Assembly (NCBI GenBank): GCA_028717225.1
Contig: JAQUOF010000004.1
Location: 1 to 43,601, forward strand
DNA from: Patescibacteria group bacterium
GTDB lineage: Bacteria; Patescibacteriota; Patescibacteriia; UBA2591; JAQUPP01
Direction of reading: 5' to 3'
DNA length: 43,601 nucleotides
Shown: one piece after another, positions 4,315-43,601 of the stretch
Numbering within the stretch: position 1 is the first letter of the stretch
Layout of the letters: each line of letters begins with the position of its first letter
Made by a program: the position numbers and the translations under genes
Notes under the pieces: generated by a model
What the model saw: only the letters and a program-made list of their open reading frames with translations
Told to the model about the DNA's origin: nothing
Databases searched by the model: none

Positions 4315-4408
4315 AAATTTCTAACCTAAAGTTTGAGTTATTGTTTAGAAATTAGGTTAATTAGGTCAATTTTACATTGTCATTTTACATTTTGATTTTT
4401 GCTTTTTG
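4315..4408. repeat. Word-like repeat array between the two gpmI copies
   Basis: The array mixes two word families. AATTTCTAA at 4316-4324 is inverted as TTAGAAATT at 4345-4353. From about 4371 the CATTTTACATTTTGA family runs into the 3' end of gpmI copy 2, so that the enzyme's last residues (SKSKNQNVK) are encoded by repeat words. A 17-bp segment at 4340-4356 recurs exactly at 6108-6124. A 22-bp segment at 4379-4400 recurs with one mismatch inside pgk at 7812-7833. Confidence 0.8.
4340..4356. repeat. 17-bp direct repeat, left copy flanking gpmI copy 2
   Basis: ATTGTTTAGAAATTAGG is present here and at 6108-6124 in the same orientation. The two copies bracket the second phosphoglycerate mutase gene. 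They belong to the wider word-repeat family, so they may be repeat filler rather than duplication scars. Confidence 0.85.
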
Positions 4409-5981
4409 ATATTAATGTCTGGCCTGTCATCTCTTTTGATTTTTTAAGACCCATTAATTCCAAAATAGTCGGCGCCACATCAGCCAAAACACCGTCTTTT
4501 CTTAATTTTTTTCCTTTATAATCGGAATTAACTAAAATAAACGGAACCGGATTAATGGAATGTTTGGTATCCACTTCGCCGGTTGTTAAATTAATCATTT
4601 CTTCGGCATTGCCATGATCAGCGGTAACAATAATGGAATAACCGTGTTTTTTGCCGGCCTTAATTATTTTCCCCAAACTTTCATCAACACATTCTATTCC
4701 TTTTATGGTTGCCTGCAAATCACCGGTATGACCAATCATGTCCGCATTGCAAAAATTCATCATAATAAAATAAAATTTCTGAGTTTTAATTTTTTCCAAA
4801 ACTATTTTTGTTATTCTTCGCGTGCTCATTTCTGGCGTTAAATCATAATGAGAAACATCCGGTGACGGAACAATTATTCTTTCTTCTCCTGATACGGAAT
4901 GATCATAACCGCCATTGAAGAAAAAAGTGACATGAGCGAATTTTTCAGCTTCGGTAATATAAAGCTGCGGCAAACCGTCTATAATTACCGGCAAACTATT
5001 TTTTACTATCCGGCTGGGATAAGCGGTTCTGATATGATCCAAATCCGGACCAAAATCCGCCAGAGCGACAAAAAATAAATTTTTCGGCCATTTTTTTCTT
5101 TTAAACGAACCCGGGTTTTTTTGATTGAATTCTTTTTGAACAAAAGATTTGCTTAATTCACGGGCTCGGTCGGATCGCAGATTCATAAAAATAACCAAAT
5201 CATTGTCGTCAATAGTGGCTGTTGGTTGGTGATCTTTTTTGATAATAGTCGGCAAAATAAATTCATCTGTTTCTTGACGATTATAAGCTTGAACAATAGC
5301 CTCTTTGGGGGTTGAAGCTTGAAATCCTTTGCCTAAAACCAAAAGATTGTAAACTTTTTCAACTCTGTCCCATTGTTTTGTCCTGTCCATGGCATAAAAT
5401 CTGCCTGAAATACTGGCGATATTAACTTTCAAATGATGATTGTCATGATTTATTTTTTGTTCAAATCTCTCCACCAGACGAATAGCCGCATGCTGTGAAG
5501 AATCGCGGCCATCGGTAAAAAGATGTAAAAATACTTCTTCAACTTTTTGCTCTTCCAAAAGCTTTAACATTGCCAACCAATGTTCGGGTGATGAATGAGC
5601 GCTGTTTTCTTCAGTCACCAAGCCTATTAAATGAACTTTTGATTTATATTTTTTAAGATGTGAAATTCCTTCCAAAAAAGCCGGATTTTTAAAAAATGTT
5701 TCATCTTTAATACTCTCGGAAATATAAACCGCGTCATCTTTAACGGCTCGTCCGGCGCCCAAATTCAAATGACCGGCTTCTGAATTTCCGGGTTGATTTT
5801 TAGGCAAACCGACGCATTCTCCAAAAGCGCAAACCTCGGTATAGGGATATTTTTCTTTATAATGATTAAAATTTGGCGTATTTGCCAGAGTAACGGCATT
5901 ACCCTTGCTTTCCGGCGCCACCCCCCAACCGTCAAGGATTATAAGAATAACGGGTTTAATTTTATTAATATTTTTTTTCAT
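4380..5981 (-). CDS. gpmI: 2,3-bisphosphoglycerate-independent phosphoglycerate mutase, copy 2
   Basis: A second full-length iPGM of 533 residues from ATG at 5981; the frame continues nine codons to a TTG at 6008, which I reject. The catalytic motifs are complete: ILDGWGVAPESKGN, the serine in QPGNSEAGHLNLGAG, FTDGRDSSQHAA, SGRFYAMDRTKQW, NLRSDRAREL, TEAEKFAHVTFFFNGG, NFCNADMIGHTGD and ADHGNAEE. It differs from copy 1 throughout, so the duplication is old or one copy came from elsewhere. The last residues after TGQTLI (SKSKNQNVK) extend past where copy 1 stops and are encoded by word-repeat DNA. It may be a second active mutase or have shifted substrate; the sequence shows no lost active-site residue. 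Confidence 0.95.
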   Translation of the reverse strand: MKKNINKIKPVILIILDGWGVAPESKGNAVTLANTPNFNHYKEKYPYTEVCAFGECVGLPKNQPGNSEAGHLNLGAGRAVKDDAVYISESIKDETFFKNPAFLEGISHLKKYKSKVHLIGLVTEENSAHSSPEHWLAMLKLLEEQKVEEVFLHLFTDGRDSSQHAAIRLVERFEQKINHDNHHLKVNIASISGRFYAMDRTKQWDRVEKVYNLLVLGKGFQASTPKEAIVQAYNRQETDEFILPTIIKKDHQPTATIDDNDLVIFMNLRSDRARELSKSFVQKEFNQKNPGSFKRKKWPKNLFFVALADFGPDLDHIRTAYPSRIVKNSLPVIIDGLPQLYITEAEKFAHVTFFFNGGYDHSVSGEERIIVPSPDVSHYDLTPEMSTRRITKIVLEKIKTQKFYFIMMNFCNADMIGHTGDLQATIKGIECVDESLGKIIKAGKKHGYSIIVTADHGNAEEMINLTTGEVDTKHSINPVPFILVNSDYKGKKLRKDGVLADVAPTILELMGLKKSKEMTGQTLISKSKNQNVK

Positions 5982-6012
5982 ACAATATAATTTAATATAA
6001 TCATTCAATTGT

Positions 6013-6141
6013 TCAAAAATTTCTAATTTTTAATTTCTAATTTCTAAATAAATCCCAATTAATTAAATGATTAAAAAAATTAGATATTTGACATTTTAAC
6101 ATTAGACATTGTTTAGAAATTAGGTCAATTAGAAATTAGGC
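6013..6141. repeat. Word-like repeat array between eno and gpmI copy 2
   Basis: This gap holds repeated AATTTCTAAT words on the left and the opposite orientation (TTAGAAATTAGG) on the right, plus an ACATTTTAACATTAGACATT stretch of the CATTTT family. It includes the 17-bp direct repeat copy at 6108-6124. No promoter or GC-rich terminator is evident. Confidence 0.75.
6108..6124. repeat. 17-bp direct repeat, right copy flanking gpmI copy 2
   Basis: Exact copy of 4340-4356, in the same orientation. It lies between the start of gpmI copy 2 and the stop of eno. Confidence 0.85.
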
Positions 6142-7419
6142 ATTTTTTTTCAACTCTTCCTCAATTTCCATTAATCGATTATATTTTGCCACTCGTTCTC
6201 CTCTGTTTGGCGCGCCGGCTTTGATAAAATCAGCGCCAACAGCCACGGCCAAATCGGAAATAAAATCGTCGCTTGTTTCGCCGGAACGATGAGAAATAAC
6301 AATTTTATAATTATTCGCTTGGGCAAATTTAATGCAATTTATCGTTTCAGTCAAAGTGCCGATTTGATTCGGTTTGATTAAAATAGAATTTGCCGCCCTT
6401 TCTTCAATACCCTTTTTTAAATGATCAATATTGGTGGTAAACAAATCGTCGCCGACAATCATTATTTTTTGCAAACGCGCGTGAAGATCTCTCCAGCCGG
6501 CCCAGTCGTCTTCAGACAAACCGTCTTCAATGGAAATAATCGGATATTTTTCAACCCAAGTTTGATATAAAGCAATCAAGTCTTGAGATGACAATTTTTT
6601 ATTTTCAAAAACATATTTTTTTTCTTTAACATCATAAAATTCTGAAGCTGCCACGTCTAAAGCAAAAACTATATCTTGCCCGATTTTAAATCCTGCTTCT
6701 TGGGCTGCGGACATTAAAACCTTCAGCACTTCTTCATTATTTTTAAAGCTTGGCGCAAAACCGCCTTCGTCGCCAACGGCTACTGAAAAACCATAAGTGC
6801 TCTTAATAATATTTTTAAGAATCTGAAAAAATTCCGCGCTTAATCTTATTCTTTCTTTAAACAATTGATTGGGTTGGTTTTTAAAATTTTCAGCCAAAGG
6901 CACGATCATAAATTCCTGAACATCCAATTTATTGTCAGCGTGTCTTCCGCCATTAATCACATTAAGCATTGGAATAGGAAGCTGATAAGCTGGTAAGTTA
7001 ACAAGCTGATAAGTCTCGCGAATATATTTATATAAAGGAATATTTTGCGATTTAGCCCCAGCTCGAGCGCAGGCCAAAGAAACCCCCAAAATGGCATTGG
7101 CGCCTAATTTGCTTTTATTTGGCGTTCCATCTAATTCAATTATTAATTTATCAATTTCTTGAGGGTTTGGTTCATATCCAATTAAGGCCGGAGCGATTAT
7201 TTTTTCCACATTTTCACAAGCATTTAATACACCTTTACCTCCATAACGGTTTAAATTATTATCTCTTAATTCAAGCGCTTCATGAATACCGGTTGAAGCT
7301 CCGGAAGGAACCGCTGCTTTTGATTCTAAACCATTTTCTAAAACAACTCTAACTTCAAGAGTCGGATTGCCTCTTGAATCTAAAATTTCACGAGCGTAAA
7401 TAGATTTAATTTTTGACAT
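6136..7419 (-). CDS. eno: Enolase
   Basis: Enolase dehydrates 2-phosphoglycerate to phosphoenolpyruvate in the cytoplasm. The 427-residue product begins with SKIKSIYAREILDSRGNPT and keeps the active-site set: GASTGIHEALELRD, VQEFMIVP, GDEGGFAPS (E218), the Mg ligands D255, E298 and D324, K349 in ILIKPNQIGT, SHRSGET (H377, R378) and K400. An unusual insertion lies at about residues 134-149 (RETYQLVNLPAYQLPIP). Typical enolases pass directly from LYRYLGG to LPVPMMN there, and the extra residues are encoded by a word repeat (6979-7016). The gene starts 10 bases after the pgk stop, so the two are cotranscribed. The last codons run into the intergenic word array. Confidence 0.97.
   Translation of the reverse strand: MSKIKSIYAREILDSRGNPTLEVRVVLENGLESKAAVPSGASTGIHEALELRDNNLNRYGGKGVLNACENVEKIIAPALIGYEPNPQEIDKLIIELDGTPNKSKLGANAILGVSLACARAGAKSQNIPLYKYIRETYQLVNLPAYQLPIPMLNVINGGRHADNKLDVQEFMIVPLAENFKNQPNQLFKERIRLSAEFFQILKNIIKSTYGFSVAVGDEGGFAPSFKNNEEVLKVLMSAAQEAGFKIGQDIVFALDVAASEFYDVKEKKYVFENKKLSSQDLIALYQTWVEKYPIISIEDGLSEDDWAGWRDLHARLQKIMIVGDDLFTTNIDHLKKGIEERAANSILIKPNQIGTLTETINCIKFAQANNYKIVISHRSGETSDDFISDLAVAVGADFIKAGAPNRGERVAKYNRLMEIEEELKKNA
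6979..7016. repeat. Word repeat inserted in frame in eno
   Basis: AAGCTGATAAGCTGGTAAG and the following GTTAACAAGCTGATAAG belong to the same word family as the arrays at 15610-15648 and 38548-38700. The segment encodes the extra loop YQLVNLPAYQL of enolase, read on the minus strand. Confidence 0.75.
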
Positions 7420-7429
7420 AATTTTTTTA

Positions 7430-8656
7430 TTAGTTAATCAACGGCTTAATTCCCGGCAATATTTTTCCTTCCAAAAATTCCAGCATTGCTCCTCCGCCGG
7501 TTGAAATAAAAATATTCGGTTTAGAAATTGAAAATTGAAAATTAGAAATTGCCTCCCGAAGGGAAGCTATGGTCTCTCCGCCGCCAATAATAATTTTGGC
7601 TTTGCGATTGTTTAAAATTATTTTAACCATTTCCTTTGTCCCTTGATCAAAAAACTTTTCTTCAAAAAGACCCATTGGACCGTTCCAGATAATTGTCTTG
7701 GCGGTTTTAAGATATTTTTGAAATAATTCAACTGTTTTAGGACCAATATCCAAGATATTAAATTCCTCGTCTTTAATCTTATTTAATTTATCTAATTTTA
7801 AATTTTGAATTGTCATTTTGCATTTTGATTTTTTAATTTTACATTTTGTTTTAACATCCAATGGCAAAATAATTTTTTTATTTTTAGCCAATTCCTTTGC
7901 CACCTCAATCATTGTCGGTTCATAGAATGAAGTTCCAATATTAATTCCTTTTATTTTTAAAAAAGTATTAGCCAGGGCTCCGCCGATTAAAATTTGATCG
8001 GCTTTTTTGGTTAAATTTTCTATGGTTTTTATTTTGGTGGAAATTTTAACTCCGCCCATTAAAACTATAAACGGATGTAATGGCTTAACTAAAACCTGAC
8101 TTAGATTTTTAACTTCTTTCTCCAAACGAAAACCGGCATAGGCCGGCAAATAACGAGTAATTGCCGAGACCGAAACATGCGCCCGGTGGCAAACAGAAAA
8201 AGCATCATTAATGTATAAATCCGCAAATTCGGCTAGTTGCTTGGCAAATTTTAAATCATTTTTTTCTTCTCCATCATAAAAACGGAGATTTTCCAATAAA
8301 ATAATTTCTCCCGGCTTCATTGTCGCAATCTCTTTTTTGACTTTTTCGCCAACGCAATCATTGATAAACCTCAAGTTTGTAGTTTGTAGTTTGTAGTTTT
8401 TAGTTTTTAATTTCAAATGCTTATATATTGGCTTTAAACTATATTTTAAATTCTTTTTCCCCTCTGGGTCTCTCAAATGACTAATCAAAATAACAATCGC
8501 TTTTTGTTGAATTAAATATTTAATGGTTTCTAAAGCGGCCTGAATGCGAGTATCATCAATAACTCGGCCGTTTTTTATCGGACAATTAAAATCAACCCTT
8601 ACCAGCACCCTTTTTCCTTTTAAATTTTTGATTTCTTTAATTGTTTTTAACTTCAT
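7430..8656 (-). CDS. pgk: Phosphoglycerate kinase
   Basis: PGK makes ATP and 3-phosphoglycerate from 1,3-bisphosphoglycerate and ADP. The 408-residue protein has RVDFNCP (20-26), LISHLRDPEG, LLENLRFYDGEEKN, INDAFSVCHRAHVS, LMGGVKISTKI, NGPMGLFE (325-332), IIGGGETIA (356-363) and STGGGAMLEFLEG (385-397). Three loops carry low-complexity inserts encoded by word repeats: about residues 81-97 (KLKTKNYKLQTTNLRF), 269-292 (VKTKCKIKKSKCKMTIQNLK) and 370-381 (SNFQFSISKPN). None touches a catalytic motif. It is the first gene of the glycolytic operon, with a promoter five or so bases upstream of the ATG by predicted start point, and eno follows after 10 bases. Confidence 0.97.
   Translation of the reverse strand: MKLKTIKEIKNLKGKRVLVRVDFNCPIKNGRVIDDTRIQAALETIKYLIQQKAIVILISHLRDPEGKKNLKYSLKPIYKHLKLKTKNYKLQTTNLRFINDCVGEKVKKEIATMKPGEIILLENLRFYDGEEKNDLKFAKQLAEFADLYINDAFSVCHRAHVSVSAITRYLPAYAGFRLEKEVKNLSQVLVKPLHPFIVLMGGVKISTKIKTIENLTKKADQILIGGALANTFLKIKGINIGTSFYEPTMIEVAKELAKNKKIILPLDVKTKCKIKKSKCKMTIQNLKLDKLNKIKDEEFNILDIGPKTVELFQKYLKTAKTIIWNGPMGLFEEKFFDQGTKEMVKIILNNRKAKIIIGGGETIASLREAISNFQFSISKPNIFISTGGGAMLEFLEGKILPGIKPLIN
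7521..7550. repeat. Word repeat in pgk, 3' proximal (AGAAATT/GAAAATT family)
   Basis: TTAGAAATTGAAAATTGAAA is followed by ATTAGAAATT. The same words fill the gaps at 4315-4370 and 6013-6141. On the coding strand it gives the loop SNFQFSISK between GGGETIASLREA and FISTGGGA of PGK. Confidence 0.8.
7801..7849. repeat. Word repeat in pgk, central (CATTTTGATTTTT family)
   Basis: It shares a 22-bp near-exact stretch (one mismatch) with 4379-4400 and a 19-bp exact stretch (7822-7840) with 9656-9674 in the ligase-TPR gene. It encodes the lysine-rich loop at about residues 269-285 of PGK. Confidence 0.8.
8374..8408. repeat. 7-bp tandem word repeat in pgk (AGTTTGT x3, AGTTTTT x2)
   Basis: Three copies of AGTTTGT are followed by two of AGTTTTT. 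Seven is not a multiple of three, yet the frame stays open and encodes KLKTKNYKLQTTNL in the loop after the SLKP segment of PGK. Confidence 0.85.
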
Positions 8657-15022: not shown

Positions 15023-15610
15023 ATGGAGAAAAAATTTTGGGCACATTCATCAGCAGAAGTTTCGCCGGAAGCGAAAATCGGTTCCGGAACAAAAATTTGG
15101 CAAAACAGCCAAGTTTTAGCCGGCGCGCAAATCGGCGAAAATTGCATGGTCGGCCATAATTGTTTTGTCGGCGGCCAAGTAAAAATGGGCAATGGCGTTA
15201 AATTAGAATCCAATGTTGACGCCTGGGATTTGGTTACTTTGGAAGATTATGTTTTTGTCGGACCGTCAGCGGTTTTTACCAATGATCCTAATCCACGCGC
15301 CAAATTTCCAAAGAAAAAATATCCGGAATACGGCAAATGGAAATCAACCTTGGTCAAAGAAGGCGCATCAATCGGCGCTAATGCCACAATTGTTTGCGGC
15401 GCCACTATTGGCAAAAGCGCTTTTATCGGCGCTGGTTCGGTTGTTACCAAAGATATTCCCGATTACGGTTTAGCTTACGGCGTGCCGGCTACTGTTCACG
15501 ATTGGGTTTGCGATTGCGGTAACAAACTGCAATTCAAAAATAACAAAGCCGTCTGCAAAATTTGTGGCAAAAAATATTTAAAAAAACAAAAAATAGTCAA
15601 GCAAATATAA
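15023..15610 (+). CDS. wbpD: UDP-GlcNAc3NA N-acetyltransferase, WbpD/WlbB-like, with C-terminal zinc-ribbon-like tail
   Basis: A left-handed beta-helix acyltransferase that would acetylate the 3-amino group using acetyl-CoA. Hexapeptide repeats are clear: [40 protein letters not shown], and later [20 protein letters not shown]. The WbpD-type segment [20 protein letters not shown] lies at about 84-103. After the helix, residues 161-184 add CDCGNKLQF and CKICGKKY, a four-cysteine set (C163, C165, C178, C181) likely to bind zinc. Total length is 195 residues. It sits between the WbpB-like and WbpE-like genes, which supports the assigned acceptor. Confidence 0.88.
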
Positions 15611-15648
15611 CTTATCAACTTAGTAAGCTTATTAACTTAATAACTTAA
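15610..15648. repeat. Word-like repeat between wbpD- and wbpE-like genes
   Basis: ACTTATCAACTTAG (15610-15623) recurs at 38653-38666, and CTTAGTAAGCTTATT (15619-15633) recurs exactly at 38637-38651. This is the only intergenic array of the family seen inside the plus-strand glycan array, and it starts at the stop codon of the acyltransferase gene. Confidence 0.8.
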
Positions 15649-38558: not shown

Positions 38559-38700
38559 GCGGGTAAGTTGATAAGTAAATAAGCTAAATAAAAATATCCG
38601 GTTAATCCCGGATATTTTTATTTATTTAACTTATTTCTTAGTAAGCTTATTTACTTATCAACTTAGTTAGCTTATCTACTTATCAACTTCCTTATCTACT
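38548..38700. repeat. Nested inverted word repeats between wzz-like gene and recA
   Basis: A 21-bp perfect inverted repeat (38565-38585 with 38644-38664) surrounds the terminator hairpin. AAGCTTACTAAG (38548-38559), which contains the stop codon of the Wzz-like gene, recurs inverted at 38637-38648. On the recA side CTTATCTACTT (38671-38681 and 38691-38701) is repeated and contains the recA stop codon. The stop codons of both convergent genes therefore lie within the repeat. Confidence 0.85.
38585..38624. terminator. Bidirectional terminator between convergent wzz-like gene and recA
   Basis: A 17-bp perfect inverted repeat (38585-38601 with 38608-38624, loop TTAATC). The inner stem ATATCCGG is flanked by A-rich and T-rich sides, so RNA from either strand ends in a hairpin followed by U residues. 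It lies 27 bases after the Wzz-like stop and 72 bases after the recA stop. Confidence 0.9.
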
Positions 38701-41491: not shown

Positions 41492-43597
41492 TTACTCTAT
41501 TTCCTCCTTCTTTTTATATACGTCTCTCGGCTTGGCGCCTTCACCCGGCCCGATTGTTTCTTCTTCCTCCAATAAATCCAATAACCTTGCCGCGCGGGCA
41601 TAACCGATTCTCAATCTTCTTTGTAAAAGTGAAGCAGAAGCTTTACCGGCCTGAATAACCACTTCTCTGGCATCTGACAGCATTTCATCTTCCACTAAAT
41701 CGCTTAAATTATTTCCCGATTCATTTTGTGGAGGCGCGACAATTTCGTCCTGATATTCCGGTTTGGCGACATTTCTTAAATATTCAACAATTCTTTTGAT
41801 TTCTTCATCTGAAACATAAGCACCTTGCAATCTTTTCGGTTTGGATAATTCCGATGAAATAAACAACATATCACCGCGGCCCAATAATTTTTCCGCGCCT
41901 GAAAAATCCAAAATCGTTCTTGAATCAGTCATCGAAGCCACTGAAAAAGCTATTCTGGAGGTAATATTGGCCTTGATCAAACCTGTGATAATATCCACTG
42001 ACGGGCGCTGGGTGGCCATTATTAAGTGAATTCCGGTCGCCCGAGCCATCTGTGACAGCCTGATAATACAAGCTTCAACTTCTTGCGGCGAAGTGATCAT
42101 TAAATCAGCCAATTCGTCAATTACCACCACGATAAACGGCATTTTAATTTTTGCGTCTTTATTGTAAGCGAAAATATCTCTTTTTTGAACCTGACTCATC
42201 ACTTCAAAACGGCGCTCCATTTCTTTAATTGACCATTTTAAAGCGTTAATAGTTTTATTAACATCAGTGATAACCGGCGTTAATAAATGAGGCAAGTCAT
42301 TATATAAAGTAAGCTCCACTCTCTTTGGATCAATGAAAATAAATTTCAAATCCTCGGGAGTATTTTGATAAATTAAATTTACGATGACTGAATTAAGCAT
42401 TACGGTTTTTCCGCTTCCGGTTGAACCGGCCACCAGCAAATGCGGCATTTTTCCCAAATCGCCAAACCATATATCGCCCGCCACGTCTTTGCCTATTGCC
42501 AGCGATAAATTAGTTTTATTTTTTCTGAATTCAGCGCTTTCAAAAACTTCTCTCAATCTGACAACTGCTTTTTGCTTATTCGGTATTTCAATTCCAACCA
42601 AAGATTGGCCCGGAATCGGCGCTTCAATTCTGATCGGATGAGCGGCCAAAGCCAAAGCCAAATCATTTTGCAAACCCGTAATTTGCGAAATTTTTACGCC
42701 ATCAGCCGGTTTCAAAGTATATTGAGTGACAGTCGGACCGGTTTTTACTTCTCCCATTTCCACCGGAATGCCGAAACTTTCCAAAGTTTTTTGAATAATC
42801 AATTTATTATTTTTTATATCCCCGGAATTCGGTTTTTCAGAGCTGGAATCCAATAAATCCAAAGGCAATTCAATCTTGGGGCGAATCTTCGTTGAGCCAA
42901 AACCGGCGATTCCTTTGGCCGATTTTAAACTGTCTTCCGTTTTTTCCAAAATTTTATCTTTTTCACTATCCGGTTTTAAAACTAATTTTTCTTTTTTGGC
43001 TAAAATCGCTTTCAAACTTTGAAAACCCGCCTGAGCAAGATTTTCTTTTTTTCTTTCCGCTTCCGCCTCCAATTCTTCTTTTGTTAATTTTTTCTTCAAA
43101 TTGGAAAAAGCGACAATTCCGCCAACCGCGAAAGCGCAAACAAAAATCACCCAACTCGCCCAAATTCCGAAGGTGTTAACAATCACATAACTTATTCCAT
43201 AACCGATATATCCGCCTCCTTTATATGCCGCAAGGGCCAATTTATTATCAACAAAATGAATGTGGAAAATGGCCGCCAACATCACAACCGAGAAAAACAA
43301 TCCGGCCAATCTTATCCCGAAAGGCCTTTTGGGATAAATCTCCTGAATTTTTTCATGATTAAGGCACATAATTGCGACAATCGCCAAAGCAACCGGAATT
43401 GTCCAACTCGCCCAGCCCAAAATAACTTTAAGGCCGACAGACAAGAGTTCGCCCGCCACTCCGGCTAATCCGCATAATCCCAATAATAAAATAATGGCCA
43501 AAGTAAACAAAACTATGGCCAAAACCAGCCGACGCGTCGGCGATAAAGATGAAAAATTAAGTTTTTCTTTTGATTTTTTCAGTTCTTTTTTCTTCAT
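41492..43597 (-). CDS. ftsK: DNA translocase FtsK/SpoIIIE
   Basis: FtsK pumps DNA at the septum and aids chromosome separation. The 701-residue protein has four N-terminal membrane helices (within about 24-165) and a short charged linker (about 170-240). The alpha/beta motor follows, with Walker A AGSTGSGKT (390-398), FIDPKRVELTLYNDLPHLLT, Walker B VVVIDELADLM (490-500) and LIMATQRPSVDIITGLIKANI. The C-terminal winged-helix gamma domain is at about 638-690 (AGKASASLLQRRLRIGYARA). The linker is short compared with E. coli FtsK, closer to SpoIIIE. The start ATG at 43597 is only four bases from the window edge, so upstream signals cannot be judged. Confidence 0.97.
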   Translation of the reverse strand: MKKKELKKSKEKLNFSSLSPTRRLVLAIVLFTLAIILLLGLCGLAGVAGELLSVGLKVILGWASWTIPVALAIVAIMCLNHEKIQEIYPKRPFGIRLAGLFFSVVMLAAIFHIHFVDNKLALAAYKGGGYIGYGISYVIVNTFGIWASWVIFVCAFAVGGIVAFSNLKKKLTKEELEAEAERKKENLAQAGFQSLKAILAKKEKLVLKPDSEKDKILEKTEDSLKSAKGIAGFGSTKIRPKIELPLDLLDSSSEKPNSGDIKNNKLIIQKTLESFGIPVEMGEVKTGPTVTQYTLKPADGVKISQITGLQNDLALALAAHPIRIEAPIPGQSLVGIEIPNKQKAVVRLREVFESAEFRKNKTNLSLAIGKDVAGDIWFGDLGKMPHLLVAGSTGSGKTVMLNSVIVNLIYQNTPEDLKFIFIDPKRVELTLYNDLPHLLTPVITDVNKTINALKWSIKEMERRFEVMSQVQKRDIFAYNKDAKIKMPFIVVVIDELADLMITSPQEVEACIIRLSQMARATGIHLIMATQRPSVDIITGLIKANITSRIAFSVASMTDSRTILDFSGAEKLLGRGDMLFISSELSKPKRLQGAYVSDEEIKRIVEYLRNVAKPEYQDEIVAPPQNESGNNLSDLVEDEMLSDAREVVIQAGKASASLLQRRLRIGYARAARLLDLLEEEETIGPGEGAKPRDVYKKKEEIE

Positions 43598-43601
43598 ATT
43601 A

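Follow-up and report, generated by a model that had tools for sequence, protein, structure and literature searches.

We propose that the arrays of short repeated words in the window (the whole 43,601-nucleotide stretch of DNA analysed here) represent arms of small mobile elements belonging to the intervening sequence (IVS) type, and that single arms survive in the surface loops of proteins; we put the probability of this reading at roughly 80%. A complete element would be ~460 bp long, with an IVP/S23 four-helix-bundle gene between two imperfect inverted arms, each arm consisting of degenerate 7-8-nt words that vary between elements; derivatives without the gene would retain just the two arms.

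The phosphoglycerate kinase (PGK) gene of the window is a complete open reading frame of 408 amino acids, in which three loops are encoded by repeat words:

7430-8656, minus strand: PGK gene (PF00162, 441.7 bits; fold match to 1php and 1vpe)
8373-8417, minus strand: loop 1, residues ~80-95, an AAACTAC array (AGTTTGT on the plus strand)
7792-7845, minus strand: loop 2, residues ~271-288, putative solo left arm of an AAAATC-type IVP element (period-7 array at 7794-7848)
7810-7832, minus strand: irregular 23-mer AAAATCAAAATGCAAAATGACAA, the exact cross-phylum core of the loop 2 arm
7520-7550, minus strand: loop 3, residues ~369-379, an AATTTCT/AATTTTC array (period-7 stretch at 7525-7551)

The initial annotation had described one of these segments as three copies of AGTTTGT followed by two of AGTTTTT, and exactly this tandem is found at 8374-8408, where Tandem Repeats Finder assigns it a period of 7 and a score of 59, the top period-7 score of the window. 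The other two segments claimed to consist of repeat words are the period-7 arrays of loops 2 and 3, and the surrounding catalytic motifs, said there to be normal, are intact. The loop 2 arm falls within the PGK peptide KTKCKIKKSKCKMTIQNLK. Mapped on an AlphaFold2 model, all three segments lie on low-confidence loops, the block means of pLDDT being 86, 67 and 69 and the mean of the whole model 93.5. In this model the site of loop 1 has helix 75-87 on one side and strand 95-98 on the other, that of loop 2 is the turn joining strands 267-273 and 281-287 of a predicted hairpin, and that of loop 3 lies past the helix that comes after the GGGET motif.

Coding windows (n=26,271) from a sample of 420 of the 864 kb of the same genome (G000), for which ORFs beyond the window were predicted mechanically, were compared with real and with dinucleotide-shuffled intergenic DNA. 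Against the real intergenic DNA, PGK loop 2 scores 60 bits and loop 3 scores 43 bits, while in the shuffled control two of the 26,271 coding windows reach 39 bits and none reaches 43; the two loops thus stand above all shuffle-control windows, which is more than chance would give. The match of loop 2 (39 nt at 95%) is an intergenic hairpin on another contig of the same genome. Loop 2 is also homologous to the left arm of an IVP element (L220) in the congener G001, with 43 of 50 positions identical and a score of 35, compared with a shuffle maximum of 24 and no more than 16.5 for PGK windows outside loops 1 and 2; a profile HMM of the arm detects it with an E-value of 2.9e-10. Loop 2 is therefore very likely the solo arm of an IVP element, as judged from its sequence. 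Loop 1 is probably an arm of the same type: its best IVP-arm match is the left arm at G000:C20:8382, in inverted orientation, with a score of 19.5, marginally above the shuffle maximum of 18, and its best match of all (30 nt at 93%) is another array, within the tsaD gene of this genome, no intergenic match of comparable strength being found in the 420-kb sample. Compared directly with IVP arms, loop 3 equals the shuffle maximum and is not significant; it matches intergenic positions 6018-6048 of the window, 1.4 kb away, over 31 nt at 90% (43 bits). Loop 3 would thus be a copy of one arm of the hairpin at 6009-6135, presumably of the same origin as loop 2.

Gene-less elements lie between genes of the window, that hairpin among them:

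2160-2283: intergenic inverted-repeat element with AAGCTAA words (hairpin z -4.3, 0 of 200 shuffles as stable)
6009-6135, minus strand: intergenic inverted-repeat element with AATTTCT words in the gpmI/eno gap, no gene (hairpin z -1.95, 5 of 200 shuffles equally stable)
38559-38695: intergenic inverted-repeat element with AACTTATC words (hairpin z -9.4, 0 of 200 shuffles as stable)

Short gene-less elements are more stable than their shuffles, and intergenic arms often occur in pairs able to form hairpins. MITE-like terminal inverted repeats without a gene are found at L049 (1640-1810) and at 38559-38695 of the window. A lone AACTTATC-type array lies between two genes at 15607-15647, with no partner and no hairpin (z +0.6). 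At the contig end, positions 43452-43600 are identical in sequence to the beginning of contig C6 from the same genome, either as a repeat or as an assembly overlap.

The core of the loop 2 arm extends the comparison well beyond this genus. With at most one mismatch the 23-mer occurs in 14 of 192 genomes of the class, often in several copies each, and the reversed 23-mer in none of the 192. Exact copies lie in at least 116 stretches among GTDB species genomes of many phyla, high-GC ones included, where by our own estimate fewer than one would be expected by chance in 257 Gb. Among the matches listed are Patescibacteria, Nitrospirae, Deltaproteobacteria, Chloroflexi and Planctomycetes, as well as Omnitrophota, Chlamydiae, Bacteroidetes, WOR-3 and others; most of these genomes are metagenome assemblies, in which individual taxon labels can be mistaken. 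The arms nevertheless lie within or adjoin ordinary host genes in many independent sequencing projects. Read forwards, the 23-mer is open in two frames, each of them in use (KIKMQNDN and KSKCKMT); the third frame runs into TGA. The 23-mer leads directly into IVP genes at L092, L128, L133, L140 and L148, and in G001 it does so with one or two changes. A phage origin was rejected, with no exact match in 2.9 million viral contigs.

The product of these genes is a four-helix-bundle protein of the Pfam family 23S_rRNA_IVP (PF05635), the family of the 23S rRNA intervening sequences. Of 26 genomes of the order, 17 have PF05635 hits over the cut-off, with four genes in the genome of the window; the 14 control genomes have none. 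The flanks of each IVP element are word arrays inverted to each other, and the 7-8-nt word differs per element. Across 47 IVP elements, cognate arms have a mean inverted score of 17.4, compared with 9.0 for non-cognate pairs, a maximum of 10.9 in 10,000 permutations and 9.3 in direct orientation. The cognate arm ranks first among all 47 candidates for 28 of the elements, and pairing is undetectable in 7 of the 47 (for example L203 and L214). AAAATC-type IVP proteins from different phyla are 55-84% identical. G001 holds two 458-bp copies of one element, identical at 451 of 458 positions (98.5%), at two sites with unrelated flanks, which indicates that the element is mobile or was so until recently; neither copy (L219/L220) shows an evident target-site duplication. 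The full dispersed cassettes thus combine the S23/IVP gene and the terminal inverted repeats of an IVS, and those IVP elements whose flanks were read are sited between protein genes, not in 23S rRNA helix 9, 25 or 45. As RNA, the full 458-nt element is of ordinary stability (z -0.6). A known RNA family was discarded as a candidate, with no Rfam match over the gathering score at four element-bearing loci.

Two pairs of orthologous intergenic sites, L217 (G000:C6) with L220 (G001:C1) and L193 (G008) with L219 (G001), hold IVP elements with different words directly 3' of the same upstream gene's stop codon; these sites are either shared hot spots or places of replacement. At L204 (G001:C1:315596-315910), the IVP frame runs through the arm (SKFQIPNS) into a prepilin-like protein (GFTLIELL), giving an open frame of 353 amino acids.

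To our knowledge, transposition by IVP has never been shown, and that it drives the movement of these elements is our inference. The arms may instead be moved in trans, in the manner of MITEs, by an unrelated transposase or repair process that takes the four-helix-bundle gene along as a passenger, a possibility that we take seriously but regard as clearly the less likely. It would suit the observation that most arm pairs lack a gene, and a catalytic role of IVP is hypothetical; against it, a matching arm pair of its own accompanies most of the IVP genes examined. Furthermore, reverse transcriptase (PF00078) and Y1 transposase (PF01797), the two families searched, are absent from G000 and G001, yet G001 has two near-identical copies of an element. 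Movement driven by either enzyme is accordingly rejected for this genus, and with no PF00078 reverse transcriptase in G000 or G001 the IVP proteins do not have the setting of the DGR accessory protein Avd. A broader proposal, in which the elements form a cross-phylum mobile class driven by a four-helix bundle without transposase or reverse transcriptase, the word arms serve as its recognition code, and in-frame single arms reshape the loops of housekeeping enzymes, is speculative and could well be wrong.

Single arms or arrays are also present in other coding genes, including two genes of the window:

4366-4414, minus strand: AAAATC-type solo arm that supplies gpmI with its C-terminal tail and stop codon (arm HMM E-value 8.1e-9)
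6979-7013, minus strand: AAGCTGAT-type array in frame inside enolase (Tandem Repeats Finder, period 8)

The gpmI gene (phosphoglycerate mutase, 4380-6008; TIGR01307, 575 bits) ends in the tail SKSKNQNVK*, and an alignment with G001 and eight relatives shows the enolase array to be common to the congener G001. Loop 2-type arms lie in frame within AlaRS, LeuRS, UvrC, Elp3, Lgt, SufS and a HypF-like protein, and MurB has one at its N-terminus. The tsaD gene of the same genome has a clean 14-residue arm insertion of the loop 3 word type that is missing in the 91%-identical congener and in all seven other relatives aligned. PGK had been singled out as an unusual landing site for repeats; this part of the initial annotation does not stand, as TsaD, AlaRS, LeuRS, UvrC, Elp3, SufS, Lgt and others carry arms as well. 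The left-arm HMM is weak on right arms (22 of 110 at 10 bits), and arm pairing was therefore re-tested by alignment. None of 15 arms in coding genes has a partner arm, compared with 37 of 94 elsewhere (Fisher p 0.002), and PGK loop 2 is likewise one arm only, without the pairing of a two-arm element. An O-antigen-ligase-like membrane protein of G001 (L051:16484-18103) contains two in-frame AAAATC-type arms, KIKNQKSKIKITIQN and KVKMTMQNLK.

Thirty PGKs of relatives were aligned. They contain 29 arrays of period 7 (6-9 nt), compared with a mean of 3.2 and a maximum of 8 in codon shuffles; the arrays cluster at residues 65-76, 79-98, 270-292 and 367-380, with words that differ between genomes. 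This bears out the idea that repeats have landed repeatedly where PGK tolerates them. The PGK of the congener G001 is 80% identical, and its loop 2 is 22 residues shorter and has no array, so that loop-only insertions are indeed missing in some close relatives; ordinary divergence, with equal loop lengths and unrelated DNA, does not hold among them. Loop 1 of the G001 PGK (L005) has an unrelated TCCGCT...AGCGGA palindrome-like insert, with no second copy found in 400 kb of the G001 genome, and its loop 3 has a palindrome, TCCGCCAATTGGCGGA. The loop 3 palindrome ATCCGCCAATTGGCGGAT of L005 belongs to a family with more copies in both congener genomes.

Between the congeners, PGK is only 67% identical at four-fold sites; together with the exact 23/23 core this argues that the loop 2 arm arrived recently, after the congeners split. 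Despite an arm of ~50 nt, loop 2 exceeds that of the next relatives by only 4-6 residues, which suggests that older loop sequence was replaced, not simply added to. In G002 and G013, arrays of other words are found at the position of loop 2. The repeats in PGK are not a local word habit, and on the sequence comparisons above loop 2 at least is an IVP/IVS-type arm.

An origin in place, with the 7-nt period arising by slippage and divergence of AT-rich, lysine-rich loops and steps of 21 nt (7 codons) keeping the frame, is improbable as a general account. It draws on loops 1 and 3, which are each 7 residues longer than in a shorter relative (L008), that is, 21 nt or three 7-nt units, and on the weaker AAAATTA arrays at loop 1 in some relatives. 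Codon shuffles, however, yield 3 arrays against the 29 observed, and the matches of loops 2 and 3 exceed all shuffle-control windows. Slippage cannot be the source of an irregular, non-tandem 23-mer that is exact across phyla, and for loop 2 pure slippage is ruled out on this ground. Retention of the arms for host use, as RNA processing sites, regulators or disordered linkers, is equally hard to credit: paired arms often lie right at the stop or start codons of housekeeping operons, but the words vary between elements and genomes, the same sites are empty in related genomes, and a conserved function is not visible.

Our preferred reading remains that of mobile IVS-type elements whose arms can persist singly. 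The elements and their derivatives would be sited mostly between genes, and occasionally one arm would land inside a gene, where it could survive only with an open frame and a structure that tolerates 7-20 extra or replaced residues, as surface loops do. Selection would remove insertions that break the frame or place a hairpin in the message, leaving solo arms in loops. PGK would have caught three arms of different word families, that of loop 2 after the congener split. A single arm could arise by direct insertion, by gene conversion onto an older array, or as the remnant of an element that lost its other parts. Gene conversion is suggested by how little loop 2 has changed in net length and by the other-word arrays in G002 and G013.

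The mobility and host range of rRNA IVSs have been open questions since the 1990s. The small genomes studied here supply many full and gene-less copies, two of them near-identical within one genome. In 23S rRNA (for example in Coxiella), IVSs are known as selfish elements that combine inverted repeats with an S23 ORF, and mobility has been proposed for them (PMC4990558), and IVP is present in rRNA insertions of CPR bacteria (PMC11270868). Our elements resemble them in having a PF05635 protein between terminal inverted repeats, a length of ~430-460 bp, a sporadic distribution and a supposed horizontal transfer; unlike them, they are dispersed between protein genes, have 7-8-nt word arms that change per element, and occur as many gene-less copies and, within protein-coding genes, as single arms.

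Rickettsia palindromic elements (RPEs) are whole palindromes, confined to one group of bacteria, that lie in frame in conserved protein genes. They share with the arms described here the placement of short repeated DNA in frame at tolerated places of such genes, whereas PGK loop 2 is a single non-palindromic arm, spread across phyla, with a cognate gene-bearing element. RPEs are mentioned in PMC2996958. Borg tandem repeats (PMC9879509) also lie in frame and create flexible protein segments, with unit lengths in ORFs divisible by three; in contrast, the words here are degenerate, 7-8 nt long and of dispersed origin.

Solo arms show, in readable form, where essential enzymes tolerate insertions. 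Cyanobacterial STRRs are 7-nt direct repeats between genes, some of them at ORF edges. The TAACTGA heptamer repeats of Beggiatoaceae fit the same description (PMC4679880), in a paper that leaves intervening sequences, four-helix and S23 proteins unmentioned. The words described here differ from both in being paired inverted arms of IVP elements, and the Beggiatoaceae repeats may be the same elements seen without their gene. In the open-access literature searched, no account was found of word-array arms, of dispersal between protein genes or of solo arms in proteins. The elements would explain the widespread 'word' repeats between genes and KIKMQNDN-like inserts in conserved proteins of uncultured bacteria, both of which disturb annotation, alignments and trees.

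Further in-frame inserts were seen in PGKs of other genomes. That of L006 (G023) has a hairpin insert, GTCCGACCTC...GAGGTCGGAC, encoding RGRTCLK, and those of L017 (G006) and L022 (G042) have NSSSDLEANYN and a GGGGGA-type repeat coding for IPLIPPFKKGEERGD. In a Niyogibacteria genome (L097, about 90-200), the PGK C-terminus GAMLEFLAKETLPGIEAI runs on into the same arm as loop 2.
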